Below are positions 4,648 through 63,850 of a stretch of 64,000 nucleotides of DNA, one piece after another (position 1 is the first letter of the stretch; the number at the start of each line of letters is the position of its first letter). A program made the translations under genes and the position numbers. The notes below the pieces were generated by a model, which saw nothing but the letters and a program-made list of their open reading frames with translations, was not told where the DNA came from and made no database searches. Origin of the DNA: Haliclystus octoradiatus (lineage: Eukaryota; Cnidaria; Staurozoa; Stauromedusae; Haliclystidae); contig OU744450.1 of NCBI GenBank assembly GCA_916610825.1, positions 16,663,814 through 16,727,813 of the forward strand. The letters run 5' to 3'.

Positions 4648-7600
4648 ATGCCAGGAAAAATCAAGCCAAATGGAAATCGCAAGAGAAGAACTCGGGCAAA
4701 TTACGATGTAGATGAAAATAGCGAACCACAAGTCATATGTGAGAAAAGTCAAAATCAAACCGACAAAAAATATGTCCCTACTTTTACTGCTCCAGCCAAA
4801 AGAGCAAAACAAAATCAGAAGGAAGAGAAATACGAAAACGGAGGAGATAATTGTCGTCAAGTAAGCACAATGCTTGAAGGAGAACTAGAACTGGTTAGTA
4901 AATGCAGGATACACAGACACCGTATTATCCGAGCAGACTGTTTGAAAATAAATCACGGCATGTCCTCTGTATTACCACGTTCCTTACATATTAACTTGTG
5001 TTTTATTGCTTGTCTTTAAATTACGGTATTCATTGACATTGACAAGATGTAGAATGTGCATTCACAGGCTGTACTATACATACGGACCATACGGCTCATT
5101 TAATGTCTTTAAATATACATTGCCCTAGATCTACAATTCTAAGTCTGTTGCAGACCACTATATGCAGACCTCTTAGAATTTGAATCAAGCTTTATGAGCC
5201 AGTATAATTTCCATATACTGTACTATATTTGCACACAGCCAAAAAAGAAAACTGATGCTTCAGAGATACCAGAAAACAAAGTGGAATCTTCACCATCTCT
5301 CAATACCATCGATACTATTGATGAAACTGAGAAGATACGAGCTGATGGTACGACATCAAATGATTCGCACGCAGCTAAATCAACTAAGGAGAATGGCAAA
5401 AAAGAAATCTCAGAAACCGATACAGAATTATCAACAGAGCAAATTCATGACGCAATGGATGAAAATCCGGCAGAGACTTCCTCTCAAGGTACATTTAGTC
5501 ACACTATATATGTGTTCTGTTATAATGGACTCTCATTGCTCAAGACGCGTGTCAGGAAGCTATATAGTATGTGATATTTTCAATTAGCTGCACAACTGGG
5601 ATGACCTGGGTATCCTGATTTGAATAGAATACTCGTGTAGAAAATGACCAATCCACCTTATTATTATAAAATTTATATTTCTACGTGGAGCAATGATTCC
5701 TAATCAGAAACAAATGTAGTTGGTTAGATATCAGTATATGATATATAAAAAGCAAGGAAAGCACCTACAACAGAGAATCGACATCGCTGTCCAGAGGAAA
5801 TGGGATTAGTATATTCTTAAACACGAACGGACTCTTATAAACAGGTCTATTTCTTGAGTAAACATGAGGTATGATCTCTTCTCGCATGGGGTTTTTTCAT
5901 ATAGGTTTGGATTTATCACAAATTGATATTCATAATACTGCTACCGGAACAGCAGAGGAGTTGGAGAATGATAACGCTGCCGAAACTATTCAAGAAGAGA
6001 AAGTAATTGAGCCACAAGCTGTGCATAACTTAATTGGCACCACAGATAATGAAAACCAAATAGTGCCAGACACAACAATATCATCTGACAAAGGAAGGAG
6101 TGCTCAATGCGAAGAGCTTATCGACTCATCTCAAGTCAATATGATTTCATTGCTAGAAGAAACCGAGGAAAAACAAAATGTGTAAGAGATACTATATCAT
6201 TATATGACTTCCATGTCGCACGAAGATATTTCCATGCCATATATCCATACGCTGTAGCTGTGCAACATGATTATAATAAAGTTTTCATATTCAAAAATAT
6301 ATTTTATACTTTTGGATATATGCCTTGATGATCGAGGCGCAGCGATACACCTCATAGATATTATAATGCAATTCCTTCCATACATTTCCATGGGCACATC
6401 AATATTCCGTCCAAAGCAATGGTATAATTTGTGATTTATTTTGACAGAAATCCTAGCAACCATCTTAATCTGTACAATGATACCTTCCATTTTTATTGCC
6501 AATGCATAATCAATTGGAAAGTATGATACTGTAATACTTATTCAGTCTAACTTTTAAACGACATCTAATTTCACCCTGGCATAATGTCATGTCGTAATTT
6601 ATTAATCTAGAATCTTGTTTCTCATTGTCAGAGTAAAAGACGTCGATTCCAATGCGTCGGGTTTGAATTGTATCAGAGAACAAGAGAGAGCTCAAGGTGC
6701 TACTGAGATGAAGGACCTATTTGCTAAACTTGGGGATGTTAGGTAAAGAAATTGATGAAAAAACGTACTACTTTCTTCCAAGGTTATTGGACAGATTCAG
6801 ATTTTGTAACAGAATGTGCCGTCTATATCTGTCTTGTCACCCGGGGAGCGGGGGTAAACTTAAAATGGTTGATATACAGAGACGTGCTAATTTATTGAGG
6901 GTACCTTTTCATGGTCTTTGAAAATTTTTGAGGTATCTATTTCAGAATTTTCAAAATATTCAGGGTCGTGTTTTTCAATGAGCAAAAAATCTTGATGTAA
7001 ATCCACGGAATTGTAATCAATTTTCAAATATGCGTAAATAAAAAAGTATTTGGGTATACATTTTGGCCTGAATAAAATATTTGAGTCTCCCCCCCCCCGT
7101 GGTCTTGTCATGATGTTGTACTGGAAAGAATGGAAATTAATATGATTGACCAACGATGTATCTCTATATATTGGATGAGTAGGTTATCATAGTAAAGTAT
7201 ATAGTACTGTATGTAATAATCTTTACATCGAATCAACAACCTCTAACTGCTGTATAATTATCATTTCATGGTTAGATTGCATTTCATCAGGTAAACCTAT
7301 GAATAAACCGTGCAATTCATAATAATATAGACGGTAGTAATAATGTTATTGAAAGAACGTGTGAAACTGTGTATGACAGTATAATAATGTAACTACATAG
7401 AGTGGTAAATATATACTATATATATATATATAACTTGATTTGAACGAATTCTAAAATAATTGATTGAATTTGATAGTTACCAATTAGTTACTAAGCTACA
7501 CCGTCATCTACCGGCATTGTTCGTTATAATTCTATTTATTTGCTATTTAATTGTTGGTATCTTCATTTAATAATAATATAATAATATTAATAGGTGGATT

Positions 7601-7937
7601 GTTCCACACCAGTTCTTGGCATAGTGCTCAATGAAATTAATCAGAGCATTTATATAAAATGAGAGTCAAAAATGAAACATTCTAGATTTCCGCAACTTCA
7701 AGTTTCACACCAGAAGGTGATCATCAGGCGATTTATTTTAACTATTGTTATAGTAGTAGATAGTTGAAATAAATCGCCTGATGATCACCTTCTGGTGTGA
7801 AACTTGAAGTTGCGGAAATCTAGAATGTTTCATTTTTAACTCTCATTTTATATCTTCATTTATACAGGAATGTGATTACGAAAGCCAAAGGTGATTTGCA
7901 AACTGCAATAAACTATCAAAAGACCCATGGACTTTGA
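4648..7937 (+). CDS. Unrecognised five-exon gene, predicted 306-residue acidic nuclear-like protein
   Basis: The CDS is 4648-4860, 5239-5488, 5905-6181, 6632-6742 and 7868-7937. The five exons total 921 bases and keep one frame through phases 0, 1, 2 and 2. All introns are GT-AG. The N-terminus is basic (NGNRKRRTR, a likely nuclear localisation signal). The middle is Ser/Thr/Glu/Asp-rich and probably disordered. The last two exons encode a compact, helix-prone tail (MKDLFAKLGDVRNVI, then DLQTAINYQKTHGL) that looks like the constrained part. I do not recognise the family, and no enzyme motif is visible. Exon-intron consistency supports a real gene. Exons 3 and 4 are the least certain boundaries. 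The last intron ends with an inverted hammerhead pair that stops 14 bases before the exon-5 acceptor. Confidence 0.7.
7686..7734 (-). ncRNA. Hammerhead ribozyme motif, left arm
   Basis: On the minus strand, CTGATGA (7727-7721) is followed by stem II (CACC-TTCT-GGTG) and GAAAC (7706-7702). Next come a 3-bp stem III with a triloop (ACT/AGT) and a GTT cleavage triplet. The stem I strands TCGC and GCGG pair, with one G-U wobble. All invariant core positions (CUGANGA, GAAA) are present. One U-U apposition closes stem II. The very short stem III resembles the type reported in Penelope-like elements, where activity may need dimers. Cleavage is not shown by sequence alone. Confidence 0.65.
7771..7818 (+). 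ncRNA. Hammerhead ribozyme motif, right arm
   Basis: CTGATGA lies at 7778-7784, stem II at 7786-7797 (CACC/GGTG, loop TTCT) and GAAAC at 7799-7803. Stem III is 7802-7804 with 7808-7810. The predicted cleavage is after T7811 (a GUU triplet). Stem I pairs 7812-7815 with 7774-7777. It is on the sense strand of the host pre-mRNA, about 50 bases upstream of the exon-5 acceptor, so cleavage there would cut the intron before or during splicing. Confidence 0.65.
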
Positions 7938-14608: not shown

Positions 14609-16101
14609 TGGCAATAGCTGGAAGAAAAAATAGAAACAAAAATGATTTTCACAGAAATCAGAATAGCATTTGCATTTCCCCTACAATACATCACCCGGTT
14701 CACACATACTATACAGAGATCTGAGACCACAGTGACCTGAGCCTTGAGCGCATCATCTCCAACTGAACAGAGAGGCAACATTATAATCCTCATACTACAT
14801 GGTTAAACCATGTTAGGAATCTGCTATTAGGAACACATGGCGCTAAAAGCAGTACTAAATTTCTTCCCCACCATAACCCAGACTGGAAAGTTTGCTGTTT
14901 GCGGGCAAGATCTTGGCTGCGCAATCATTTCCGCAGATGAAATTCCAGCTGCGCATTTCACAATTTTATCCGTATTTTATAAGAAAATGACACAATTTCC
15001 ATGATTATTTAGATCTATTATATCTAAAATTTGCCTAAATATGTGAAACACCCGCGCAAAATTACACCAGAATTTGGCATTCAGCTGCACATGTTCCGAG
15101 AAAAAATACAACCTTGGCTACGCATAATGAATTCTTTCCAATCTGGACCATCACTGGGGTGAGGGTGGCAACAAATCAATTCTGCAAGTTTCCTGAACAT
15201 TTCATTCCACATACGTTTATGATTATTAAGATATTAAAATGCCTTTAGTAGGCCTATATTTGTGTACAGACTTACTTAGGCCTGGCCTGATGATACAAAA
15301 GCATGTTTCAGAATAGTAATCATCTGCTATTTAGAAAATTATTTTATTATCCTAGTGGTTAAATCATCTCCGGAATACATGTACACACTATGCATTCGAT
15401 GCATAGCCTAATAACCAGTTTGTTTGTTATGTAGGACAGTAGGCCTAGCCCACATAAGTGTGTTTCCTCGAATTTTAATAAGCAAGAAAGGCTAGCCCAT
15501 CAATCATCATTTTAGCATGACGCAAATCAATCAGGCTAAGATTAAAAAATAGCTCTAGCATGATTAAGCATTAAATGTTGTTGTATATACTATTCTGAAT
15601 ATGCATACCGGCTCTGATGCGGAGGATGTCGACTAAAGGATCCTCTCCGTTCTCCAAAGCAAATCCTTTCAGGCAAGCAGGGAACTTCGTTCCGGTTTGC
15701 TGTCGTAAAATTAAGCAAATTGACATTGGGTTTAGAACATAAAACTTGTACAGAATGGCATCTCATGAGAATTTTATATGTTGAGTATTTTGAAAAATTC
15801 TATCATTTCAATCAAGCTTCCACCTTGCACAGAAACGCAAAAAAAAATTAACACAGAATTAAGACACAACAGAATGTAGTGAAACTGATTATGGCTTGTT
15901 GCTGTGCCCACAATGCAATTTATAGCCTCGCTTGAGTTTGGGAGAGAAAGCCAAGTGAAATTGAAACGAGACTCATTTGCTGCTGACATTGAAAGTTGTT
16001 GAAGCTGGTTGAAGTAGTTGATTTTGGGATCCCGTTTATTTTAGGCAGGAGATGAATTTTACCCAGAATTTTGCAATTATTCAAATATATATTGCCTTCC
16101 G
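14609..16101. promoter_or_regulatory. Divergent upstream region between FBXW7 (-) and KLHDC10 (+)
   Basis: The two genes start head-to-head. The acceptor of FBXW7's first coding exon lies near 14623. A stretch at 15609-15699 (minus) is bounded by AG and GTATGC and could be a 5' non-coding exon of FBXW7. No TATA box or other motif decides the start sites. TAGGCCTA-like words recur around 15250-15450. Confidence 0.4.
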
Positions 16102-17365
16102 ATGGCATTGAATTGTTTCAAAGAAGTAACCGCGGACGTTAGATTTTCTATCCCAGAAGCAAGAAGTGGACATCGTTGCTGCTCTTCTGATAACTACCTT
16201 TATGTTTTTGGTGGGTACAATCCTGATTTCAATCACCATCTATACCGGGAATTATGGTGTTTTAATACAACATTAGAAAGATGGATGGAGCTACCAAACT
16301 CAAAAAGGACACCATTTGAATGTGCTTCTAGTACAGTTGTTTTAATACGTAACAGCATATTTGCATTTGGTGGGTCAGGATACCCCTTTGGCCAGACAAA
16401 CAGTAACAAATTACTTGTGTATTCGTTAAAAAGGAAAGAATGGTTTGAAATTATAGATGCTTCATCGTCTAACCGTCCTTTACCAAAATATGGCCATGGA
16501 ATGGCTTATTCATCAAAAAATTGTAAATTATATGTGTATTCTGGTACAACCGGACGCTATTTCACAGATGAACTTCATTCCTTTGATTTGAGATCACTTA
16601 AATGGAACGAATTTGATGAAGATATCATAAGCACTAATTCACCCCACCCTCGCTACAGACATGAAATGGTATGGGATGATGATAGTTTTTATGTTCTTGG
16701 CGGCGGTGTGCTGGAGCATAGTTTTGGTTTCAATGAAATCTCACAGTTTCTATTTGATACAAACCAATGGAAGAATTTGAAATGTCAGCCATGCTCTAAA
16801 CATGGCTTTCCCATTTCAAGGAAAGCGCATGCATCTGTACTGTTTCATAATTGTATTTATGTTATTGGTGGTCTGAATGTAGATACTGATACTCCATGTG
16901 ATGATGTTTGGAAACTTGAACTAAGCTCTCTTCAATGGACTCTGACCTCTATAGTGAGTATGGCGTGTTTTGAATGAACACTTGAGCAATCAGCCTACGA
17001 CTACAACTTTGGTAGTCGTTTTGTGGCCAATATCTGAATTGTTTATTTCTCAAGCTTACATTGGGCCTACTCAGTTCTCAGTGTGAGTGAAGCATCCACG
17101 CTTTTGGATCACAATTGATTCAAGTTAAAATTATAATTTAGCTGCCTAAATTAAGATAAGGTATTGTGCTTCTAAATGTCCTTCATTTTCCCATAAACAA
17201 ATCTAGAAACTGTTTTAATTTCTTTAATTCCGCCAAAATATGAGAAACTTCTAAGTATGCAAATCCTCCAAAATTTGAAAATTTGCTCTGACCCTATTCT
17301 GTTTCCCTTTGAGAAAAATATAGTTAATATAACTCAACTCAAGTTGATGTTTTGCCCACACAATT

Positions 17366-17458
<93 letters not shown>

Positions 17459-20376
17459 CAGCAGACAAGTACATGTTTCTGGCCATTAGCCTTCATCAGT
17501 GCTGCTCAATGAGCGAAAAAGGAACTGACTTCGGTATATACGTAAGTCAAGATGAGTTATCAATGTGGTGAAAAAATTCATCACATGAAAAAAACATCTG
17601 TGCCATACCAGAGTGCTCAAACTACTGAAGTAGTGGGCAATGCATAACGCAAATAGTATAGACACATCTCAAGTCGATAGTGCTCAAAATTGCGCATGCG
17701 CAATTGAGACATACATATATATAATAATAATGATAATAATAATGTTGATTTAATAAATAAGTAAATTTATTTATTAAGAGCAAAACATCAATATAGTGCT
17801 CAATACCGGTAAGCAGAGCTGTATAGAAGGATATGAATAAAACCGTCTGAGGAGCGCTACAGCGCTAAACTTCGAGTAACGGAGAAAACGTCTCTTTTCT
17901 TATTTTATATCTATATATATATATATATGAGTCAAGAAAGACACACCATTTTTGTCTTTCTTGACTCTATTATTATTTACCGCTCTGCTATTTACAAGCA
18001 TTGAGCACTGATAAATTAATATTTTTATTGTTTGTTTTAAAAGGCATATTGTTGTAAATTTCTTAAAGTCTACGATTTACCGGATTTAAAATTTCTAAGA
18101 TAAAATTTGTTCTTATGCCGGCATTTGGAAATAAGTTGTGATCTTTTGTTGAGTAGGTTAGGCGAACGTGATGTTATAATATGAAATTTCTCAGTAAGGC
18201 ATAGGTTACATTTATTTGAGATGTTAGTGTATGCACTAGCAGTAGCTAATATAGACCAAATAATGTTAAATTCTGCATTACTTTCCTTGAAGTTCCATAT
18301 TAATTTTGATAGCTCAGTGTTGTTTCTGTGTGTTTCGTTCTTAAATGATTGGGTGTGGTGGGCTAGGCGGGTTTTGAATGTCCCTTCTGTAAGACCGATA
18401 TAATTATGGCTGGTGTTGCTTGTAGTAACTTTGGCGTTGTATACCATGTCTGTCGTTAGGCATTTGTTGTTGAGTGGACACTTATTCTTTGATCTACAAT
18501 TGCACATTTTTTCATTCTATTTGGGTTGGTCATTAATAATTTTTTTATTATGGTTATTGAAAATTTTTACCCATGTTGTCCATACAGCTGTAGCTGAATT
18601 TATGGTGTTCTTATTGAATATTTTGTGAAATTTATGAGACACTGGGAAATGTTTCTCAATTAGGTGTAGAAAAGCTTTGCCGATGTTAGTGCGCACGTCT
18701 TTACCGTATGGTGGATTGAACCATATCATCTGCCTTCTTCTATTTCTCCTTTTGTTGTGTGTAGAATTTTCACCGTGGCTGTATTTGAGCTCTGCATGAT
18801 GTCCACTTTCCCTCAGTGCATTTTCGTACGTTGTTTAATCGTTGTTGAAAATTTCATTGTTAGATGATAAATCACTGATTCTTTTATTAATTGCTTTTGG
18901 TAGTTGTTTAATTATCGATGGGGGATGATTTAAATTGGCATTGATGTAGGACGGTACATCATTGGGCGTGAAACTCCGAGTTACGGAAAAGGCTTTACCT
19001 CGTCTCTGTTTTATACTCTATATTATGCTCTGTCCTAAAAAACATTGAGCACTTTCATATACAGTGTATAAGAGTTCACACTCAATACAATTAATTATTA
19101 TTATATATGTAAATATATATATGCATATATCAAGTTTGAGAATCAGCAAAAAATAAGATTTATGTATTCCAATTTGACACATTCTTTCAAGGTAACCAAT
19201 TACATATTGACAAAACGGGCCTATTGGCAGAGTCGCCTCATTCCACTCGACCATCATTTCTGTGCGATGAATGGCCTAATAAAAAGGTTTAATAAATATT
19301 TACCGCAATTTAATCAAAATTGTGGATGTGCAATCACAATTGCACACTTGCAGATCTACAGTTAGTTTTTTCAATGTGAGTGATAAATATTTAAGCAAGA
19401 TGTGACAGCTAGATCCAATTATACAGGATATGGGATTGTACTTATAATTTTATTAGAGTTCCTCAATTAGGTAGCTGCTCCAAATTTCAATTTCAAAGTC
19501 TCCCAAAGATAGCTTAATCCTTTGCTTGAAATTAGCTTAAAAATTTCACATAGTTGCAAGTTGAAGCAGTTCTCAGATAGGCCTATGCTACGAATGATGA
19601 GGATGCAATGTTTCAGCATCTATCTGACATTCACTTCAGCACCTTGTTTCCTGCCAGCCTCTATGTGGCAGTTTATCCATTTGAATATGTGCTCAGCCAT
19701 ATGTGTCCATTGACTTTATACCAGTATTCTACTGAAATCCAAGGAATACTTTTCAACAATTTGTTGTAAAGTTTCTAAAATCAATCGAACCAACTTCCCA
19801 ATAGGGTCGACTCATAAAAATTTGAAAATCAAAATTTTTACCTTAACTTGCTGTACGAAATGACTTGATGACTTTGATGAGTTTTTTCGATAAACGGATT
19901 TTTTTACAGTGTGATGTCACTTAACTTTTATTTTCCGTTTTTCGAGATTTGAAATTCTCACTTTTTCAAATGCTTATTTCTCAAAAAATACTTACGGTAT
20001 CCATTAAATCTTAGCAAGGTGATTCATTTAGCAGCATTCCATTTATGCTTTGATTGATATTGATAAATAATACTTCAATTTTGTTGTTGTTTCATTATAG
20101 CGTTTGCCTGAGAAGCTATACTTTCATTCAGCTTCAGTGTCATCTCTTGGCTGCCTTTATGTATTTGGTGGTGTGACATTTAACGAAGTGTCATCACAAT
20201 CAAGCAGAACATCCAGCTTACATAAAGTATGGCTTACAACTCCCCCTTTGGTAGAACTTGTGTGGATAAAACTACTTAAGTATTTCCCAACTCTAAAAGA
20301 ACTGTCCAAGGATCAATTATCTGCTATTGGTATACCTCTTTTATATGAAGAACGATTTAATCCTTTCCCGTTTTAA
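16102..20376 (+). CDS. KLHDC10: KLHDC10, kelch-repeat CUL2 ligase substrate receptor
   Basis: There are two coding exons, 16102-16953 and 20101-20376, joined at phase 0 (ATA/CGT) into 375 residues. Kelch blades are visible: [61 protein letters not shown] and YVFGGVTF. The C-terminus ([20 protein letters not shown]) matches the BC/Cul2-box-like end of vertebrate KLHDC10. That family recruits Elongin B/C-CUL2 and reads C-terminal degrons, including alanine tails. The protein lacks the long Gly/Arg-rich N-terminal extension of the human one. The ATG is the first in the open frame and is preceded by an AT-rich leader. The 3.1-kb intron holds the TA microsatellite, hammerhead motifs and Penelope-like remnant. 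Confidence 0.9.
17370..17457. repeat. (TA)44 microsatellite
   Basis: An uninterrupted run of 88 bases of alternating TA in the KLHDC10 intron. On the minus strand it begins directly at the 3' end of the hammerhead motif at 17457-17507. ORFs translating it as Tyr-Ile repeats are artefacts. Confidence 0.95.
17457..17507 (-). ncRNA. Hammerhead ribozyme motif with complete core
   Basis: On the minus strand, the 5' strand of stem I (17506-17500, AGCAGCA) is fully complementary to its 3' strand (17463-17457, TGCTGCT), 7 bp. CTGATGA is at 17499-17493. Stem II is GGC/GCC with a TAATG loop and an A-A apposition at its base. GAAAC follows, then stem III ACA/TGT and a GUC cleavage triplet ending at 17464. 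This fits type I hammerheads with short stem III, known from Penelope-like elements and retrozymes. It lies in the sense of the Penelope-like ORF at 18070-18960 but antisense to KLHDC10. Confidence 0.75.
17843..18012 (+). repeat. Hammerhead-bearing terminal repeat, downstream copy
   Basis: The motif occupies 17843-17882. It has CTGAGGA (17847-17853, with the permitted variable base), stem II GCGCT/AGCGC, then TAAAC in place of GAAAC, and stem III ACT/AGT. A GUA triplet and stem I (CCGT/ACGG, 4 bp) follow. The G-to-T change at the invariant G12 should inactivate it. A perfect 15-bp hairpin (17929-17943 with 17953-17967) follows, and then the shared tail ATTGAGCACTGATAA near 18000. The end resembles the start of another hammerhead unit, as expected from tandem copies. 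Confidence 0.6.
18062..18960 (-). pseudogene. Penelope-like element, 3' part: RT end and GIY-YIG endonuclease
   Basis: Read on the minus strand, the sequence gives the end of a reverse-transcriptase ORF ([19 protein letters not shown], then [14 protein letters not shown]). An in-frame TAG follows, then a cysteine-rich [11 protein letters not shown] segment and a GIY-YIG nuclease domain ([17 protein letters not shown], later CNLCLTEK and [17 protein letters not shown]). These are the C-terminal landmarks of endonuclease-bearing Penelope-like retroelements. Decay is clear: the in-frame stop, a block near 18590 read in the wrong frame, other stops near 18835, and abrupt loss of the 5' part at about 18960. 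It lies in the KLHDC10 intron, antisense to the gene. Confidence 0.8.
18966..19065 (+). repeat. Hammerhead-type terminal repeat, 5'-truncated copy
   Basis: It begins inside the motif: GAAAC (18970-18974), stem III ACT/AGT, then TTACGG, and a tail through CTCTGTTTTATACTCTATAT to ATTGAGCACT (19044-19053). It closely matches 63484-63585. The CTGATGA half is missing because the repeat joins the Penelope-like coding remnant at about 18961. It flanks the element on the side opposite 17843-18012. Confidence 0.6.
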
Positions 20377-30400: not shown

Positions 30401-33400
30401 CAAGTAGCCTCCTATTGATTCATATAAATAGATACTCAACTTATTGTATTGGGAGTTTAGTGTTATTGATGTCAGTGATTAGAACAGATCTAATAGTATA
30501 CTGTGTTGTCAGTTGTAACTTCTGGTTATATTGCATTATTATTATTACAGTTATTGAGCTGCGGGACTCAACACTGGCGCAGTTGATAGTTCGATTTGGA
30601 GGTTCATGATCCCCTTAAATAAACTTTAATATTAAGTTGTATTCGTTATGGTTGACGAAGAACAAAACCATGACGCAGTTCAACAGAGAGATGTGGCACG
30701 CCCGATGGTTATATCTTTCCGTGGTAGATTGCCTACAGAATTTGACCCCATTGTATCTAACGCCTATGACTGATTTCAGAAATGGAAATCATCTTTCAGC
30801 AACTACATGTTGGCTACGGATTTGTCAGTGTACCGAAGAAAAGAAACTTGCCATTTTATACAATGTCGGAGGTGAGGATTTTCGTCAATTCGCCAGAAAA
30901 AATTGTTATTTTATAGAAACGCATCTAGAGACAGTATAGATGTAAACTCTTAGATACCAAACAAAAATCTGATCAGCGGTAAATGAATTTGTGCAAGATT
31001 TACATTCAGCCTACGATGAAACTGGATACACAGATACGTTGTTGACAGGAGAGCTACTTTTAAGAGACTTACTCATCCTTTGTATTCATAATGATGAAGC
31101 AAAACGTTTGGTATTACAAAGGGATATTGATACGCTGACAATAAATGATTGTGTCAAATTAGTGTCAACATTTGAAACAGTGCAAATTACAAAATCTGAT
31201 GAGATAATTGCATCAGAACTGAATTACATCAAATGTAAACGCTGTGGTAGACAGCATAAGAATGGTTCATGCCCTGCATATGGTAAGAAATGTAATGGTT
31301 GTGGTGGTAAATATCATTTCAAAATAGTTTGTATGAAATCACGCAAACAAAAGCACATCAAAGACGACGACAAAAAGAGAAGAGGTAAAGATGTCAAAGA
31401 TAAAAAAGACACATAAGAACTATTCAAAGAAACGTTCAGTAGCTGCTGCAATTCAACCGGATACATAATACGATTGTAGTAGTTCAACTCAAAGTGGTTA
31501 TGATTCAAATTATGCCTTACATTCAGTTGGCACAGGACAATATTCCAGAAGCGTATTTGAAATAGGCAAGTGATTTTACCAAATTAAATGACTGTTATGT
31601 AAAGCCCTGGAATTCAAAACGCATTAAAGTAACAGCGAAAGGTACTTTAAAATTATCAGGTTCACCGACACACAAAGGTGCCAGCATACATGCGAAATGT
31701 ATTAAGAGCTTACAATGTCCTTTGTTAGCCTATTCCGATTATTTGCAACTAGGCGGGATACCATCAGCATTACTTGATGAATTTAAAGTTGACGTAAACA
31801 ATCTAGATTTCAACAACTCGACAGAGAACGATAATAAACAAAATACTGAAGTTTTGGGTTGCATTGGGAAAGCAAATATTGAATTAAAAGACAATGCTAG
31901 GCCGCATGTACAAGGCGCAAGAAAACTAGCCTTCCGTCTACACAATCAGGTAGCAAAAGAGTTAGACGCTATGGTTGAAAAAGGCATTATAGAATGAATT
32001 ACTGGACACTGTGAATGGTTATCACCGATTGTATTCGCTTGGAGACAGAATGGAAGTCCAAGAATTTGTGGTGACTTTAGAAAGCTTAATCAATCGATCA
32101 GCAGAGAGAGATATGTCATACCAACAGCAGATACATTATTTGCCCAGCTGCACAGTTCAAAATACTTTACCAGTTTAGATTTGGAAACAAGATTTCAGCA
32201 AATCAGTTTCGATGAAGAGTCGAGTAAATTAACCACAATTGCGACATATAAAGGAAACTATAGATATAAAAGGTTACCTTTTGGAATTACGTCAGCACCA
32301 GAGATATTTCAAAGATTCATGTCTGATCATTTGAATGATCTGAAAGGATGCATTGTTTACATAGATGATATTTTGGTTTATCTTAGTAGCAAGGAAGAAC
32401 ACGACGAACGTTTAAAAGCAGTTTATAGCCGATTGAAGAAAATTGGTGCAAAACTTAATAAAAAGAAATGCAAAATATGTGTGAAAAATTAAAATATCTT
32501 GGTCATGTATTATCCGAAAAAGGATTATCGCCGGATACAAACAAAATCACGGAGGCTTTAGCGTTACCTCATCCAACAAATGTTAAATGTGAAATAGTGA
32601 CTGGTCAAATATATCAGAATCATTAGATGTTTATTTTAAAGATCGTCACAATTTATCAACATTAGATAAACCGAAGTTATTATTACATGGTAACATGGTT
32701 GTTATTCCTTCAGTACTACGTGAGCGTATTATAAAGATGGCCCATGATAATCACCTTGGTTAAAAAGGTACTTTATCTCAATTAAATTCTGTGTGGTGGC
32801 CCGGTATGTCTGCAGATGCCAAATTCGCTGTTAGAAATTTTGAGTATTGCAAAGAGTATAAGTTCTAAAGGAGCTCTGAGACGGCGGTATGGCACACAAA
32901 TTCTTGAGTGATCAAGGATGAGGCGACGGCCATTCACAAGATGGAATCCTGCATCTCTGATGAAAGAGTGGATGATGTGTCGGCCTTGGTGTCCACATAT
33001 TTGGTGAAAATGTGATCAGATCCGATGTGATCAAATAAGAATTGAGATTCTTGAAGGCGGCCACCAACACATACTATATTCTGCTGGTCAAGGAATGGAG
33101 ATAGTTGAGCCAGCGGGTGATTCTCAGGTAGATAAGTATTGGGCTTGATGATAGCACTAGTATTTCCCCAAGCATCAAATTGACTTTGTCTGATGAGCCA
33201 TCCTTGAGCTATAGAAGTGACTGTGGAGACGCTGGTATCTCTTGGAGTTAGACTGATTCCAAGTTTCTGAGGAGCTCGGTCAATAAAATGCAGTGCAAAC
33301 TTTACAACATGTCCAGTGACTCTAACCAATCTCTTCCAAGATCCACAGCTGTGAATGAGCTTATCCAACAGGCTGCTGAGGGATAACTTGCTTTGTAGGA

Positions 33401-36400
33401 CATTGAAGTGTTCCACATCAGGTTGTGTTTCTGGTAGATCTGGAATGCTCAATCTATCAACTGGACTCTCGTAAATTGATGAAGTAGTTTTCCAAAGGAA
33501 GTTAGGTCCTGTCAGCCAGCAGGTGTTTGCTAATTTTGAAGGCGTGATTGGGTGCGGGGTTAGATCAGCAGGGTTCAGCTCTGTAGGGATGTAGTGCCAT
33601 TGGTCTATTGATGTGTGATTAAGAATGTATTCAACTCTTCTGGAGACGTAACGTGTAAACCGCTTCTCAGTATTGTTGATATAACCGAGAACGACTTTGC
33701 TATCAGAGTAAAATACAACTTGATCCGGTTTGTGTTCGAGCTCAGAAGCTGCTTGACAGGCCTTCTTTGAAGCTTCTAAGGCGGCACACAGCTGCAGGCG
33801 TGGAATGGAAGTTGCACCTCTTGGTGCCAGTTTAGAGTCAGCCGAAACAAAGGAGACGTGGATGCCACCATTTTGGCTGAAAGATTTGAGGTAAATGATA
33901 TGACCCATTGCATCTTGAGAGGCATCGCTGAACATATGCATCACTTGTTGAGAGGGCTGTAAGTTAGCAGGCAAAAATGGTTGTGGTGCGCGGAGATCTT
34001 CAAGAGATTGTAGAGATGTGTGCCATTCCTGCCATTTTTGATAGAGATGTGAAGGCAGTGGGGCATCCCAGTCGATTGGTCTTTGTGGTTCAACCAAGAT
34101 GGACGCACGTTGAAGAAGCTTGCCTTCGAGAGTGACAAGACTGGCCACTCCAAGGAGATCGTAGATAGAGTTGATGATAGCCATGATGCCTCTTCTTGTG
34201 AGTGGTCGATTTGAGAGTTCAACTTTCAAGAGAAAGGCATCGGTGGCAACGTCCCAGGCCACACCAAGCGTTTTCTGTAAAGGTGCTTGATTGAAGTCAA
34301 TTTGACGCATCTCCTGGGCACGCTCATAGATTGGAAAGGCTTCAAGTCTGTCTGGGTGGCTTGCAACAATTTTGTGTAACCGTATGTTGAAGTGGCCAAG
34401 AAGGAATCACCGCAACCTAGGCCGTCGTCCACATAAAAGTTTTTACAGATGAATGAGTTGGCTTTTTGTTGTTGTTCTGCACCATTGTGTTGCGAAGCAG
34501 GGCAACGAAGAGCCTGAGTTGCAATTGCAGGACTAGATTTGTTGCCAAAATGTGAACCTTTGCTCTGTAAGTGGTGAGAGGTTTGCATGGGTCATTGTCC
34601 TCAAACCAGAAAAATCTCATGAAGTCTCGATGTTCGGCAGCTACTTCGAAGGACTGAAACATCGATTCGATGTCAGCGACAAACCCATACTGTCCTTCTC
34701 GGAACCTTGTCAATACGCCTTTCAGTTTATTGTTCTCGTCTGGGCCTTGTAACAGATGACTATTCAGACTGACATTTTGAAATGTAGCAGCACTGTCAAA
34801 GACAAGACGTACTTTTTCCTTTTTGGATGCGTAACAGGAAACACTGGTATGTACCAAACTTTTCCATCAGCACAAGCAACTTCGTCGATCGGCACTTGCT
34901 CAATGTGATCCATTTTGATGCTTTTGGCCATTGAGGTAATGCATGTGCTGAGCAGTTCGGGGCTTTGATGGAGACGTGCCATAGCGGTTCTCTGGCGTCA
35001 GAAGATGACATGTCTCATTGTTTGGCAAATAAGGATCTTCATGCTTCAAAGGGAGAGGGGGTTCCAAGCTTGTTGCGTACAATATTGTGGATTATCTTTG
35101 AAATAAATGCTTTATCTTCGGTTGAGTGACCAAGAAACTCATTGTCTGGATGGCGATCAAAGGGTTCTGAAGTGACATGCTGAGGACCAAAGGCAAGATG
35201 ACCATAAAAATGATCGTGGTCTACAGCTGACGAGATGAGTGCTTTGAAGCTGCGAGGTTTTGGTTTGTCTAATGGGCAAATGGATCCAATAACGGCCCAG
35301 CCAAGTGGTTTTTGATGGACGAAAGGCGTGTGGTCACGATAAGAGCTGGTCTTCAACAAGTTTCCTCCGTCTCGGCCAATAAGAAGGGTTACATTTGCGT
35401 TTGCGTCAATGTTGCGGAAGTGATGACTGTAGTGGTTTATATGAGAGTGTTCCTTGACCATGGACGGTATGGCAACTTCATCTCTCATATCGGGAATAAG
35501 TGGATGTTCAATAAGTTCTGGCAGATCGTAGTGCATTGCTTCTGATATTCCCTTTATGATTAGCCCATTGGCAATGCGACCATGCATAATAGATCGGTGT
35601 TCAGCTAGAGTAGACACTTTGTAATCATGCAGTGGTGATTCGATATTGCAATAATTGAACAATGATGGTGACGCAAAGGATTGATCTGGTTGTTCGTCAA
35701 TTATTGCGTATGTTCGTAGACTCTTGGTCGGTTCAGAAGGTAGTGTGATGTCAACTAGCAGTGTTTTACCACAGCTACGGCCACTGCTCTGGAGCTGACA
35801 AACCTTTGTACAGAGTGTGTTGGATTCAGTTTGACGCGTTGATGTGTGGTTGTTTAAAGGTATGGCGACATTAGCTTCTTGATGTTGTTTGTCTTCACTG
35901 TTTGAGCTGATTGCTTTGTCTTTGTGAAGTAAAGTTGCATGTTGAGAAGATCCACATAATTCGCATTTCGCTTCTATTAAGCAGTTTCTTGCAATATGGC
36001 CTCCCAAGCATTTGAAGCAGATGTCGAAACTGCGTGCTAAGGTGCGTTTGACATCAATTTCTAGAGAAGAAAATACTGAGCAGTCTGAAATTGAATGACC
36101 TTTTGATTTGTGTAGAGGACAGAATTGACTTCCTTTGGTATGACTTGTCGTGAAGAGTACCCTCGAGTTCGTCTGATTGATTGTTGGCTTGGGAATGCAT
36201 GACATTGTTGTTGGTTGGCTGTTTGTAACTGGTTGGCTGCTTGTTGAATCTGTACCATAGTTTGGGTTGCATAGTTCATCGGCTTTAATTTCCAGAAAGG
36301 TGCAAAATTCACTGAAAAGAGGATGATATCCATGGATGAGCTCGAAGTGCGTGCCAAATGAGCGCCATTTATTTATCAAGGAAAATGGCGGTTTGCTTCT

Positions 36401-39400
36401 TATTGGTTTTAGACCCTCCGCGCATAATCAAGAGCCTTGAGGTCTGGGACCGAACTGATATTGGCCAGGACGATCTGACAGAGGTCACTTAGGTCTCTCA
36501 CTTTCAGGCTCATGCCGAGGTCGCTTGCCTCAATGGATGGGAATGAATACAATTTTTGGCGTAAGCTGCATGAGATTTTGTTGTTATGTGTGAGTTTAGG
36601 AGAGGTAAAAGGGTTGGACGAGATGATTGATTGTTGATGGTCTTGATTAGGTCCCAAGTGGTTGCCGATGCCTGGTTCCACTGATGGTTACATTGAATGT
36701 TGAAGCCACTGTTGTATTGCATTATGGTTTGGCAAATTGTTGGGTGTGTGCTTCAGTGGACTTTTGTTGATGTCAATGGTATCAATGGGACATGCCGCAG
36801 CAATTTGATCAGACATGAGGGCCGAGGTATGGAAGGGATTACTAGCTCCAAGGTTTGACTTTTCGTGGTTGGACCTCTGAGTTGTGTGCATTGCTTCCTG
36901 ATTGGAGTCAGCAATGATATAGGTTGCCTGATTCTGCGTCTCGTCTCCTTCTAATTGTGGGGGATGATCTTGATTTAGCGTGGGTAAGGAGGATAAACCC
37001 CATGCGCTTGAACGTTCAGACCCGTTGTCCTCTGAAGGACATATTTTCAGTTGGTTCTGGGCTTCACAAATTGAATTGCGCTGTCCCCTCATGATTAGCT
37101 TATACTTTTCAATCTCCGCTATAGCTGCATTCCGTTGCAAAACCTCTTTGAGGCTTACGAAAATGGTACTTAGGGTTTTCCATGCTCCCTTTATCTCCAG
37201 AAGGATTCTCTTTGTCTCCTTCACGTAGTCAGTTTATGAGAGGTCGACATCTTCAAATACTAGTGCCAGTCCAGGTCCTGATTGGCATCGTTGAAGCTTT
37301 CTTGAAGTTCCGGCAGAGGTTTCTTTTGATCTCTATTGGATTTTCTTGATCCGTCTTGGTACTGGGCCATGGTTGTGAACAATCTCTGAGAGTGACCGAT
37401 ACTTTTTTTACTGTAAAGTGTGGAGATTTATGCAATCAATGACAACACTTTCAGCGTAATACCAATGTATTTTTGTAAACTAAAGAATAAGATATGTGGA
37501 CATGTTGTAAGATAATAGGAATACATTTGAACTGAATATACTCCAGTAATGAAGTTAAAATTGATTAATTAAAGAGCATAAGGAAAGTAAAGGTAAAGAA
37601 CATCAACAATTTGTTACTTACAAAAGTGTGGGGTTTCCCCAGCCGTCAATTGTCATGATTAATTACAGTAATATTAAGATCAATAAATAAGCATGGCTAC
37701 TCCATGTGTTCGTGGCCATGTTCATTTTATATCCTTTCCAATTCCTGTCATCTGTATACGAGGCGGAGGTGGGCAAACAACCCATTACATAAAAAACAGC
37801 TTCCCTTTTGATGATTCTCATGTAGCTGTACCTCACTCGTACCAAGGCTACCAACTCTCCTTTTGAGTATATAGGCTCCATACATATCTGTTATAGAAAA
37901 ACCGATTACATTTTATACAGAACAAAGTTAGGATTCATGCTCAATAAAGTAATTCGAAAAGTGATTATAATGTAATATAAAGTACCGTTTTCCTTGTTAA
38001 TGAAAATGGCTTTCCCAATTTTCTTATCCTTGTGTAATATATACACGTCTGACCTGAAAAAATGACCACATAAAAAAATAACGTCTATTACAAAGTAGAG
38101 GGATCTGGTGCTCGACACTTGAATTATCATTCTCACCTGATCAAGTCATTGGTAGTGTTACCAATTAGCGCCTCGTTCCCAGAATACAATTCATCATTCA
38201 ACTCTTCCTCATCTGTGGGAATTGTCGGTGCAACTTCAGCTTGCATGGGCCTTATCATTGTCCTGTGAAAATTGAAGCTTCATTAAATTTCATACAACAC
38301 ACGTAGCCAATTGACAACATTTATTAGTAGTGTACTTACAGTTTAATTGGTGGCCTAACACTCATTGTTTCATTTTGAGACGTTTTCTCTCCTTCCTGCG
38401 AATGAATCGTATTTTATTAAAACGCTATATTTTCAACAAAAGTGATAATCAATTTTTTAGCTAGAATTGATAGTGTTGCGTTAAGAGAATGTCAATACTT
38501 CATACAATATGTAAAAGGAGATGCCAGTAAAGAAATCACAATAAGACAGAAAATACAACTGTTTGTGATTTTTGATACACTCAATCTCAACTCAAGCGTA
38601 TCGATTAGTTATGATAAAAGTCACAGGGTTTCAGTCAGTGGCGTGACAAGTACAAATAATATATATATCGCTCATTTTAACCTTTCTGGCCAACCTTGTA
38701 AGGTATCCTCTTCTGTTGCATAGCATCTCCGAGATATGGTGGTTAATCTCTCTAGCACTTTTACGATAGTTTTGGTTGACTTCTAACACATACCAAAAGA
38801 TAAATTATTTCACATTTATAATTATTTTTCGGTATTAGATTTTTAATAAATTTGTCCATACCGATTTCAATATCACAGCTTTCAGTTTATTTTGCTTTAT
38901 TGATGCTAGAGAGGGATCGTCCCATGCCCCACAGCTGATAGATAATTGCCAAATCATATACTGAAACAAACAAAATTATGCATTAATTTTTATTTAGCAG
39001 ATAGCAGACTATTCTAACTAGGCTGGAAAAATTATTTTATGCTTGCTTGAACTTTGATTTGCCAAAATCATCTTTTCTCCTTTTTTCCGAGGAATAATAT
39101 CGATATTTTTTTCCCCTTTTAGGAAAGTTATGTTCAAATATAGTAGATTATGCGTAGGCACATGTCTATGGCTGAAGCAAAAATAAGCCCTTCTAAAAAA
39201 ACAATGTCTTTGAAATTTTTCGCCGTTGTCGTTTCTCATTATTTGTTGTCAACTCAACTTGATTTCAATGCGGCATTTCAAAGGCAGGAATTTCAAAAAC
39301 ATGGATGCCTTAAAGTTTCAAAATGCGATTAAATGTCATTAGAATAATACCCTAATTGGTTTTTTAAACCTTGAAAATTTTCAAGATATTTTTGGGAGTA

Positions 39401-61800: not shown

Positions 61801-63850
61801 ATAACATGAGCATTTTAATACTACCATCGGCTATGGTATTTTATATCTTTGAAGCTGCACTAAACATTTCCACTCTATAAACCATCGCGTCCGTTTTAAT
61901 AAATTCTGAATAAATATGCATATCACGAACTTATTTGGCAGAATGAGTTGTTTTCGTTTTTCTATCAAAATAATTAATTTATTCATAATCGTCTTTTCTT
62001 TCATTCGACATCTGTAATATATTATACATAGCGCGTAGAAATATTGACAACAAGATTTAACATAATATCAATATCGAATTAGTATACTGTAGCGATTTAT
62101 TATAGAATTTTATTTCATTTTAAAAGAATGTTGATGTTGTTATTCTGGAAAATTTGATAACAAGAAGCACTATGAGGCCAACTTTTCACATCTTTTTTTT
62201 ACTTATAAAATTTTATTTTCAACAAACTCTTAGTATTTTGATAGACTGCCATGAAAATCACAGGCCTGCTTGCTGAGATTGCAAAGATCAAAAATATAAA
62301 GGCTCATATACCATCGTATCATAATATTTTCAGATTATATATATAATTTGATTTTCAATACAAGCGCGTCGGTCGGCCTTGTTCAATAATACGTTGTCGA
62401 AGCAGTAGGTTTGTTGATCACGTCAGTTAAAGCGCCGATAACAGAAAGTAAGGTAGTGGCCGATTGGTTAATGCTCTGGTATTACAATGTCAGGGTCGTC
62501 AGTTCAAATCCACCAATCGGCAAAATTTTTCAACGATTTTTCTGATTTTTTTTTTAATATGAAGCAGTAAATCATTGTTAATTTTAACAAAAGATATTGT
62601 TTGATCATGTTAATAACAGAAATTAGTGGACCATGTGTCTTGTCGAAGCTAAATCAATTTAATATTGAATATATTGCATGCAATGCCACGAGTTTGACCG
62701 GCCACACCTTGACGGCGTTATTTTGTGAACACCACATTAGTGTTGTATATTTTGCAATAAAGATTGATGAATTCAAACCGAACGCGATCCGATCGTATCG
62801 GGTCAGATTCGGGTTAATATTTTAGGTCTTCGGATTGGATCAGATTTGAAGTGATTTTTTATGGATAGTTTCAGATTTCGAAATTTGACTGAGTATTTGT
62901 AATTTATAATAATCAATGTGTTCTGGCTTCCTTTCAGCACATAAAATAAAGTTTTTCTATGTAGATATAGCTACGTTAAATTATACATTTCAATCGACTC
63001 AATTGATGTGAAATAAATTAAAATTTTATTAAAGGAATGATTAAGATGTATTGATTAATGCTACATCGTTTCAATGCATATTGTGTCTCATGTTCTCCTC
63101 CAGAGTTCATACTCCGTATTATACAGCGATAGTCAGCTTAGTCAATTGTTTAATTATAAGTGATCTGAAAGTTTTATCATATAAGGTCCATTACGGACCA
63201 CACTCATTGCTAGTATAATACTAATATCGTACTAAAAAATACTATATAATTACATCACATTTCTAGACAAAAGCTCGGAAAAAATTTCAAAATGCCGCCA
63301 TCAAAACAAATTCTATTTATGTAACTTTAAATCCGGTATCTAATCATAACAATTGTAATAATAAACAACAACCTTTTTATCAACACAATAGATTTATATT
63401 GCGTCTATGTATCAATTTGTAAGAGTATAGTGGTATGTTTTAATTGTTTAGTAAACCTTCTGATGAATGCAAAGTAAACGCTTGAAACTCTGAGTAACAG
63501 AAAATGCATTTGCCTCATCTTTGTTTCTATTCTATATTCTGCTCTGTCTTAACAAACATTGAGCACTCTCTCATACATGTGTTCATCTCATATTGTATTA
63601 CATTATTATAGTTATAGTTATTAAATAATAATTATTATGGAATTGAATAAATTATTTAAATATTGATGCTACATTTATGTAGTTATGTTCATTGCTGTTT
63701 TTATTTCTTTGATAGGTCAATCTTAGATATGGGATTTATCATCCTAAATCACGTCTTGGGAATGAGCAAGACACTTGCACAGCATGCGCTGGAACGATGA
63801 TCATGGAATTTGGTGCTCTTAGTAGATTCACTGAGAATCCTATTTACGAG
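52888..63850 (+). CDS. EDEM3: EDEM3, ER degradation-enhancing mannosidase, 5' part
   Basis: Seven exons are visible: 52888-53009, 56816-56861, 57250-57350, 57440-57479, 58351-58463, 59805-59958 and 63716-63850. All are in phase and give 237 residues; the rest lies beyond the window. A hydrophobic signal segment ([19 protein letters not shown]) precedes MSNEERQTM. The GH47 domain then follows: [51 protein letters not shown] (with the catalytic-type Glu), [18 protein letters not shown] and [20 protein letters not shown]. The ADELMPL and DTCTACAGT wording fits EDEM3 better than EDEM1 or EDEM2. EDEM3 trims mannose from misfolded glycoproteins for ER-associated degradation. Its introns hold a hAT-type MITE and a hammerhead-like repeat. 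Confidence 0.92.
53010..56815. other. EDEM3 intron 1, no further feature supported
   Basis: A 3.8-kb AT-rich intron. I see no ORF with family motifs and no terminal repeat pair. A (CAT)n-like stretch near 54088-54100 is trivial. Confidence 0.4.
56950..57005. repeat. End fragment related to the SEC22B-intron foldback MITE
   Basis: AATTGCCCCGGGAAACCTGC and the following TGTGGCA resemble the right end of the 22298-22746 element (AAGTTGCTCGGAGAAACCTG, then TCTGTGGCGC). Only one diverged end is seen, in EDEM3 intron 2. Confidence 0.4.
58779..59605. mobile_element. Non-autonomous hAT element with 8-bp target duplication
   Basis: An 827-bp element with perfect 16-bp inverted ends (TAGGGATGAGACGATT / AATCGTCTCATCCCTA). 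It is flanked by the 8-bp direct repeat TTAATATG (58771-58778 and 59606-59613), the hAT hallmark. Near the ends, AATCGGC/GCCGAT words recur. The internal ORF at 58768-58977 is short and has no transposase motif. It lies in EDEM3 intron 5, sense-neutral. Confidence 0.85.
59959..62454. other. EDEM3 intron 6, left part, nothing recognised
   Basis: A 2.5-kb AT-rich intronic sequence without supported exon, RNA gene or transposon end. Confidence 0.4.
62455..62521 (+). repeat. tRNA-derived sequence (SINE head or pseudo-tRNA)
   Basis: A box-like TGGCCGATTGGTTAATGC and B box-like AGTTCAAATCC are spaced as in a Pol III promoter. GCCGATT at 62459-62465 and AATCGGC at 62515-62521 form a perfect 7-bp closing stem. 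The A box resembles Ser/Leu tRNAs. The T stem is badly paired and the body too short for a working tRNA, so this is a tRNA-derived repeat. Confidence 0.4.
63460..63585 (+). repeat. Hammerhead-bearing terminal repeat, third plus-strand copy
   Basis: CTGATGA (63460-63466) and GAAAC (63484-63488) are both intact. Stem III ACT/AGT and a GTA triplet are present. Stem II and stem I are eroded, so activity is doubtful. The tail (CTATTCTATATTCTGCTCTG, then ATTGAGCACT at 63558-63567) matches 18966-19065. It lies in EDEM3 intron 6 just before exon 7. Confidence 0.6.

Follow-up and report, generated by a model that had tools for sequence, protein, structure and literature searches.

The inverted repeat beside the last exon of a predicted Haliclystus octoradiatus gene is best read, from its sequence, as a head-to-head pair of pseudo-LTRs of a Penelope-like retrotransposon. 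The window is the whole stretch of DNA analyzed, 64,000 nucleotides long, and positions are counted from its first letter. In the account that we consider quite probable, a short Penelope-like element inserted into intron 4 of the gene by two-sided reverse transcription and head-to-head joining, with its hammerhead motifs as passive cargo.

The two arms of the repeat are each 94 nt long and 98% complementary, with a 14-nt spacer, close to the inverted arms of ~92 bases described in an earlier sequence-only reading of this DNA (Table 1). That reading overlooked the leftward extension of the element to 7570 and the 12-bp duplication. The true unit is a 281-bp insertion, 7570-7850, between two 12-bp target-site duplications, the last three bases of the tail-less arm overlapping the right duplication copy. 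On the minus strand the insertion reads as an arm followed by a tail; on the plus strand it reads as an arm without a tail, and this tail-less outer end stops ~75 nt after C3. Because the arms differ at just 2 of 94 positions, the insertion looks recent. The link to Penelope drawn in the sequence-only reading is borne out by longer copies, target-site duplications and a common tail.

Table 1. Positions of the insertion and of the host gene model in the window
Feature	Position	Strand	Basis or remark
Host gene model, five exons, 306 aa	4648-7937	+	GT/AG junctions, single frame
Target-site duplication (12 bp), left copy, TATCTTCATTTA	7558..7569	.	Direct repeat with the right copy
Tail of the tailed side: hairpin-forming tail plus ATT-rich end	7570..7651	-	98% match to tails of sister copies; predicted fold
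Tailed-side arm, type I hammerhead	7652..7745	-	C3 at 7727; cut predicted at 7694/7693, mirroring the right arm
Filler where the two arms meet head to head	7746..7759	.	
Tail-less arm, type I hammerhead	7760..7853	+	C3 at 7778; cut predicted at 7811/7812
Target-site duplication, right copy, TATCTTCATTTA	7851..7862	.	Direct repeat with the left copy
Exon 5 of the host gene	7868..7937	+	Reading frame and splice signals only

Each arm carries, on opposite strands, CTGATGA, a 4-bp stem II (CACC/GGTG) within a U.U mismatch, and GAAAC, together with a 3-bp stem III closed by a triloop, U at H17, and a 4-bp stem I. The labels C3, H17 and G12 follow the usual hammerhead residue numbering. The conserved core residues of the type I hammerhead are complete in both window arms, and every element named in the sequence-only reading (CTGATGA, 4-bp stem II, GAAAC, triloop stem III, stem I) was found in both. 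For covariation, we aligned 12 motifs of the same genome, picked by eye from pattern matches; the core of one (window 17847) is broken. Once the type I structure was imposed, 89.0% of 136 cells were paired, versus 27.3-40.8% in six slid versions. Both-side changes occurred in 7 of the 12 pairs, a result reached in none of 500 shuffles; the pair types were ordinary in number (120 of 500 shuffles). Stem III is nearly invariant across the motifs and so lends no covariation support. This pattern supports the predicted type I helices, stem III excepted.

Searches with Rfam, which the sequence-only reading had put forward as a check over 7600-7900, gave no hammerhead in that interval even at E<=10, and none in the window at gathering score. 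At relaxed thresholds most matches were microRNA-like, an effect of the long hairpin, and none was a hammerhead. At gathering score no hammerhead was matched in 11 other loci either, 8 of which had been fetched by a hammerhead-like pattern; since related motifs are missed too, the negative result says little and is not decisive. Two further Penelope-type hammerhead motifs lie in the window at 17837-17882 and 63450-63500, both on the plus strand, the former with G12 changed to T. Elsewhere in the genome, L081 and L082 (G000:C1) are inverted repeats with CTGATGA...GAAAC cores and a longer stem II, not obviously of the same families.

The whole inverted repeat is predicted to fold into one hairpin with an energy of -152.4 kcal/mol. 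A single arm reaches -12.7 kcal/mol in its best alternative fold versus -8.3 kcal/mol when constrained to the ribozyme pairs; stem II of the window arm has U.U at its base. With hammerheads on opposite strands that would pair into a single hairpin, the window pair should be silent in this orientation. A review reports that minimal Penelope ribozymes cleave through a direct-repeat dimer, and ribozymes on opposite strands would be unable to form one.

Genome-wide counts of 404 core matches, 566 arm 3' ends and 255 arm-tail junctions, with reversed controls of 0 each, indicate that the window element is a member of a family with hundreds of copies. We analyzed 45 distinct loci among L009-L068, which correspond to 44 elements, as L015 and L049 both belong to L069, one at each end. 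These loci, selected for resemblance to the arm or the core of the window element, are not a random sample; the tail was not a selection criterion. Pseudo-LTR ends with an optional tail, that is, arm ends and arm-plus-tail ends, were found across the 44 elements. For 29 of them, both sides were identifiable (L009, L010, L013, L015/L049, L016, L019, L021, L023, L024, L026, L030-L032, L034, L035, L037, L038, L040, L041, L043-L047, L053, L056, L058 and L063, plus L039, which joins these 28 through a tail-end remnant), and all 29 have exactly one tailed and one tail-less end. The other 15 are one-sided in the sequence examined, nine showing the tailed side only (L017, L022, L025, L027, L028, L033, L042, L059, L061) and six the tail-less side only (L011, L012, L018, L020, L029, L054). 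In four of the tailed ones, each with a likely duplication (L017, L033, L042, L059), a few TATAAAA-like bases stand where the tail-less end is expected; as targets are AT-rich, these bases are only suggestive of tail-less end remnants. Tail-less ends mostly stop at one point, TTTTATAT, with earlier stops in L026, L034, L037, L043 and L063.

The longest word common to the two flanks averaged 11.2 nt in 26 two-sided copies versus 6.5 nt in 650 mismatched pairings, and it reached 12 nt in 12 of the 26 versus 2 of the 650. Where the duplication is clear, we read the pair as one insertion event; the lowest of the 26 (3-6 nt) fall outside this claim. Among related elements inspected by eye, L078 is tail-less at both ends, L080 seemingly has no tail, and L079 and L083 have one each. 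Given L078 and L080, the one-tail rule is not universal. The tail motif GCTCTG...GAGCACT is common to the window element, L078, L079 and L083 and is predicted to fold into a hairpin in each of them; it is a candidate signal at which the reverse transcriptase may bind or start. Direct arrays also occur. L084 (G000:C7:23613250-23614150) has AAACTCTAGTTATA at either end and consists of a tail-less inverted arm and then three tailed direct units of 189 nt whose joints are identical; L085 (G000:C2:37181600-37182350) is a direct tandem array of arms with a 122-nt period. Such arrays may stem from later duplication or from a multi-unit RNA template.

Longer copies encode, as judged by structure modelling, a protein of the telomerase-like reverse-transcriptase type, as in Penelope-like elements. 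In the 2.9-kb palindrome L069, each half has Penelope-like frames. The 360-aa frame of L074 has 57% identity to the 736-aa frame of L078, which lies just downstream of an arm and tail. Because Pfam and PDB sequence searches with the element proteins gave nothing usable, we relied on fold comparison: the model of P0003, a homologue of the L078 frame, matched telomerase-like reverse transcriptase, with matches covering model residues 1-484 and barely reaching the C-terminal part. Another homologue, P0002, matches Pfam GIY-YIG at 26.2 bits (cut-off 22.6). The genome's own element proteins gave no Pfam match to GIY-YIG, with fold matches limited to residues 1-484; YIG and the conserved R and E can be seen by eye. 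A different element may occupy 32934-37233 of the window, on the minus strand, where three long frames resemble a BEL/Pao-type LTR retrotransposon by eye.

The 5' starts of 69 of 72 entries could be placed relative to C3. Forty of the 69 fall at -19 to -14, 14 of these at -19, and none at -23 to -20; 17 reach past -25, into the 3' region of the element, and the other 12 are scattered. No placed start (0 of 69) coincides with the ribozyme cut at +33/+34, the nearest being two at +30, in a set where core-based choice of loci leaves starts downstream of the core visible only on second arms. The pile-up of starts, together with their absence at the cut, points to templates with a fixed 5' end that seem not to be ribozyme products. 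The -19 boundary comes after TTTTTGTAG, so a spliced leader or an upstream exon joined there was weighed; since the bases upstream vary between copies, a transcription start is the likelier reading, and in L074 a TATA-like CATATAGG stands 21-28 nt ahead of the boundary.

The mechanism we propose is as follows. The element protein would cut both strands of the target DNA, and each cut end would prime reverse transcription of a short RNA of the element, the tail site being used on one strand and a tail-less site on the other. Both cDNAs would run to the 5' end of the RNA, ~19 nt upstream of the hammerhead core, and the two halves would then be joined head to head with little filler. The hammerheads would be carried along within the end repeat, the ends of the element not being made by them. 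Two starts per insertion would account for the one-tail rule, the duplications, the fixed 5' ends, the filler at the joint and the unequal pairs. For the family as a whole, we lean modestly toward the view that each insertion is two-sided, with different start sites on the two strands, that inverted pseudo-LTRs are the normal product, and that the template forms without ribozyme cleavage.

Palindromic joints could also arise by self-priming, in which one cDNA folds back and copies itself, its far tail being lost or never copied; this is the origin put forward for the Penelope elements of rotifers, with an antisense template (PMC3846280). In 4 of 22 pairs the members share private variants (8 in all versus 0.8 expected), which a common source RNA explains, as does fold-back. 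(Per-column substitution counts were not taken as a sign of selection, as many loci were chosen by exact core match.) What favors two starts above all is a group of three elements, L016, L019 and L046, which fold-back does not explain: one side consists of tail only, opposite a whole arm, and the overlap that could be copied is nil or nearly so. One of these, L046, has no clear duplication. The arms are unequal in several further pairs (e.g. L023, L030, L044, L047, L063), and in most copies the position at which the tail of the far end is lost hardly varies. We consider fold-back unlikely for these reasons. Spread as a metazoan retrozyme, a non-autonomous element multiplying through ribozyme-cut RNA circles, would suit a short, ribozyme-bearing sequence of high copy number, and a few direct tandem arrays exist (L025/L070, L084, L085). 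Yet direct tandem arms occur in 1 of 44 elements (L025), head-to-head copies are usual, the window copy is inverted, and starts are absent from the ribozyme cut, so this origin seems very improbable. The palindromic shape and high copy number also recall a MITE-like DNA transposon with terminal inverted repeats. That identity is barely conceivable given duplications of variable length, unlike sequences at the two ends, variable 5' truncation, and Penelope-type coding sequence in long copies.

The position next to an exon raises the matter of function. The host gene proposed in the sequence-only reading, 4648-7937, is borne out as a coherent model with five exons, GT/AG junctions and a 306-aa frame, and the distance of 14 bases between the repeat and the exon-5 acceptor agrees as well (7853 to 7868). 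As the 306-aa protein has no Pfam family and no homologue at E<=0.001, the case for exon 5 consists of frame and splice signals. TACAG adjoins the right duplication copy, and the repeat lies this near the acceptor because the element landed there (12-bp duplication plus TACAG). The pyrimidine fraction of the last 25 nt before the acceptor is 0.64 before and 0.76 after insertion; with this stretch still pyrimidine-rich, ordinary splicing is expected despite the insertion. A ribozyme device affecting splicing or 3'-end choice of the host gene, the role suggested in the sequence-only reading, would fit the complete cores on both strands, the placement 14 nt before the acceptor and the stem covariation across related motifs. 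It does not sit well with the landing site, with an insertion that is recent and repeated, with arms that pair into a hairpin (-152.4 versus -8.3 kcal/mol for the ribozyme fold), with the weak U.U base of stem II and 3-bp stem III, or with the pyrimidine-rich acceptor, and we regard it as highly implausible. At 7820-7868 (+), the right arm differs from the majority at one base near its 3' end (TTTTTAACTCTC for TTTTTGACTCTC), and the TTTTTAACTCTC variant is slightly more branch-site-like, ~30 nt before the acceptor, probably by chance. Elsewhere in the window, a KLHDC10-like exon at 16045-16974 has matches in lancelet, fishes, lamprey, hagfish, frogs and Ciona at <=39% identity, and other matches reach 45%.

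Minimal type I hammerheads are reportedly a feature of Penelope-like elements (Cervera and de la Pena in 2014, Lunse et al. in 2017). The motifs here resemble them in the short stem III, the location in the pseudo-LTR and the weak or dimer-dependent activity expected, and differ in that most copies are head to head, so that the direct dimer cannot form. Penelope families of Adineta vaga are described as having inverted pseudo-LTRs, a tail optional at one of them and a short target-site duplication, with the head-to-head form most frequent and joints palindromic, and self-priming on an antisense template was proposed (PMC3846280). The elements here share all these structural traits. Where self-priming was proposed there, the many short copies here let polarity, 5' ends and non-overlapping halves be counted, and these favor two starts. 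For the Poseidon element PAc of Anolis carolinensis, both strands are reported to be cut and extended in vitro at an AT-rich target, the tail is bounded by two reverse-transcription start sites, and hammerhead mutants still insert, the hammerhead not being needed (PMC11167929). The two-start-site tail, AT-rich target, cutting and extension of both strands (in vitro for PAc) and dispensable hammerhead are thus points of likeness. The same work describes no start-site difference between strands in vitro, and tandem genomic copies (PMC11167929), whereas genomic copies here show one start of each kind; the missing strand difference would count against two polar starts. Metazoan retrozymes, which form direct tandem repeats and are considered to propagate via circles that ribozymes make (PMC7229834), are likewise short and numerous with type I hammerheads, but neither direct tandem repeats nor ribozyme-cut ends are the rule here. 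In the literature searched, judged by titles and the opening parts of abstracts, no earlier count of tail polarity over many copies was recognized, which is weak evidence that ours is new.

How Penelope elements integrate, and why they have inverted ends, optional tails and hammerheads, is an unsettled question. Hundreds of short, young, duplication-flanked copies turn integration into a counting problem. The counts favor a fixed 5' end of the RNA and, for each insertion, two polar starts; they oppose ribozyme cleavage in the making of the template, in agreement with the in vitro work reported for the lizard element (PMC11167929). The window element, for its part, cautions that a neat ribozyme pair beside a splice site can be a coincidence of landing. 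If the two-sided view is true, self-priming would be unneeded for inverted pseudo-LTRs, and short copies would be the necessary outcome of an internal start on a one-unit RNA.
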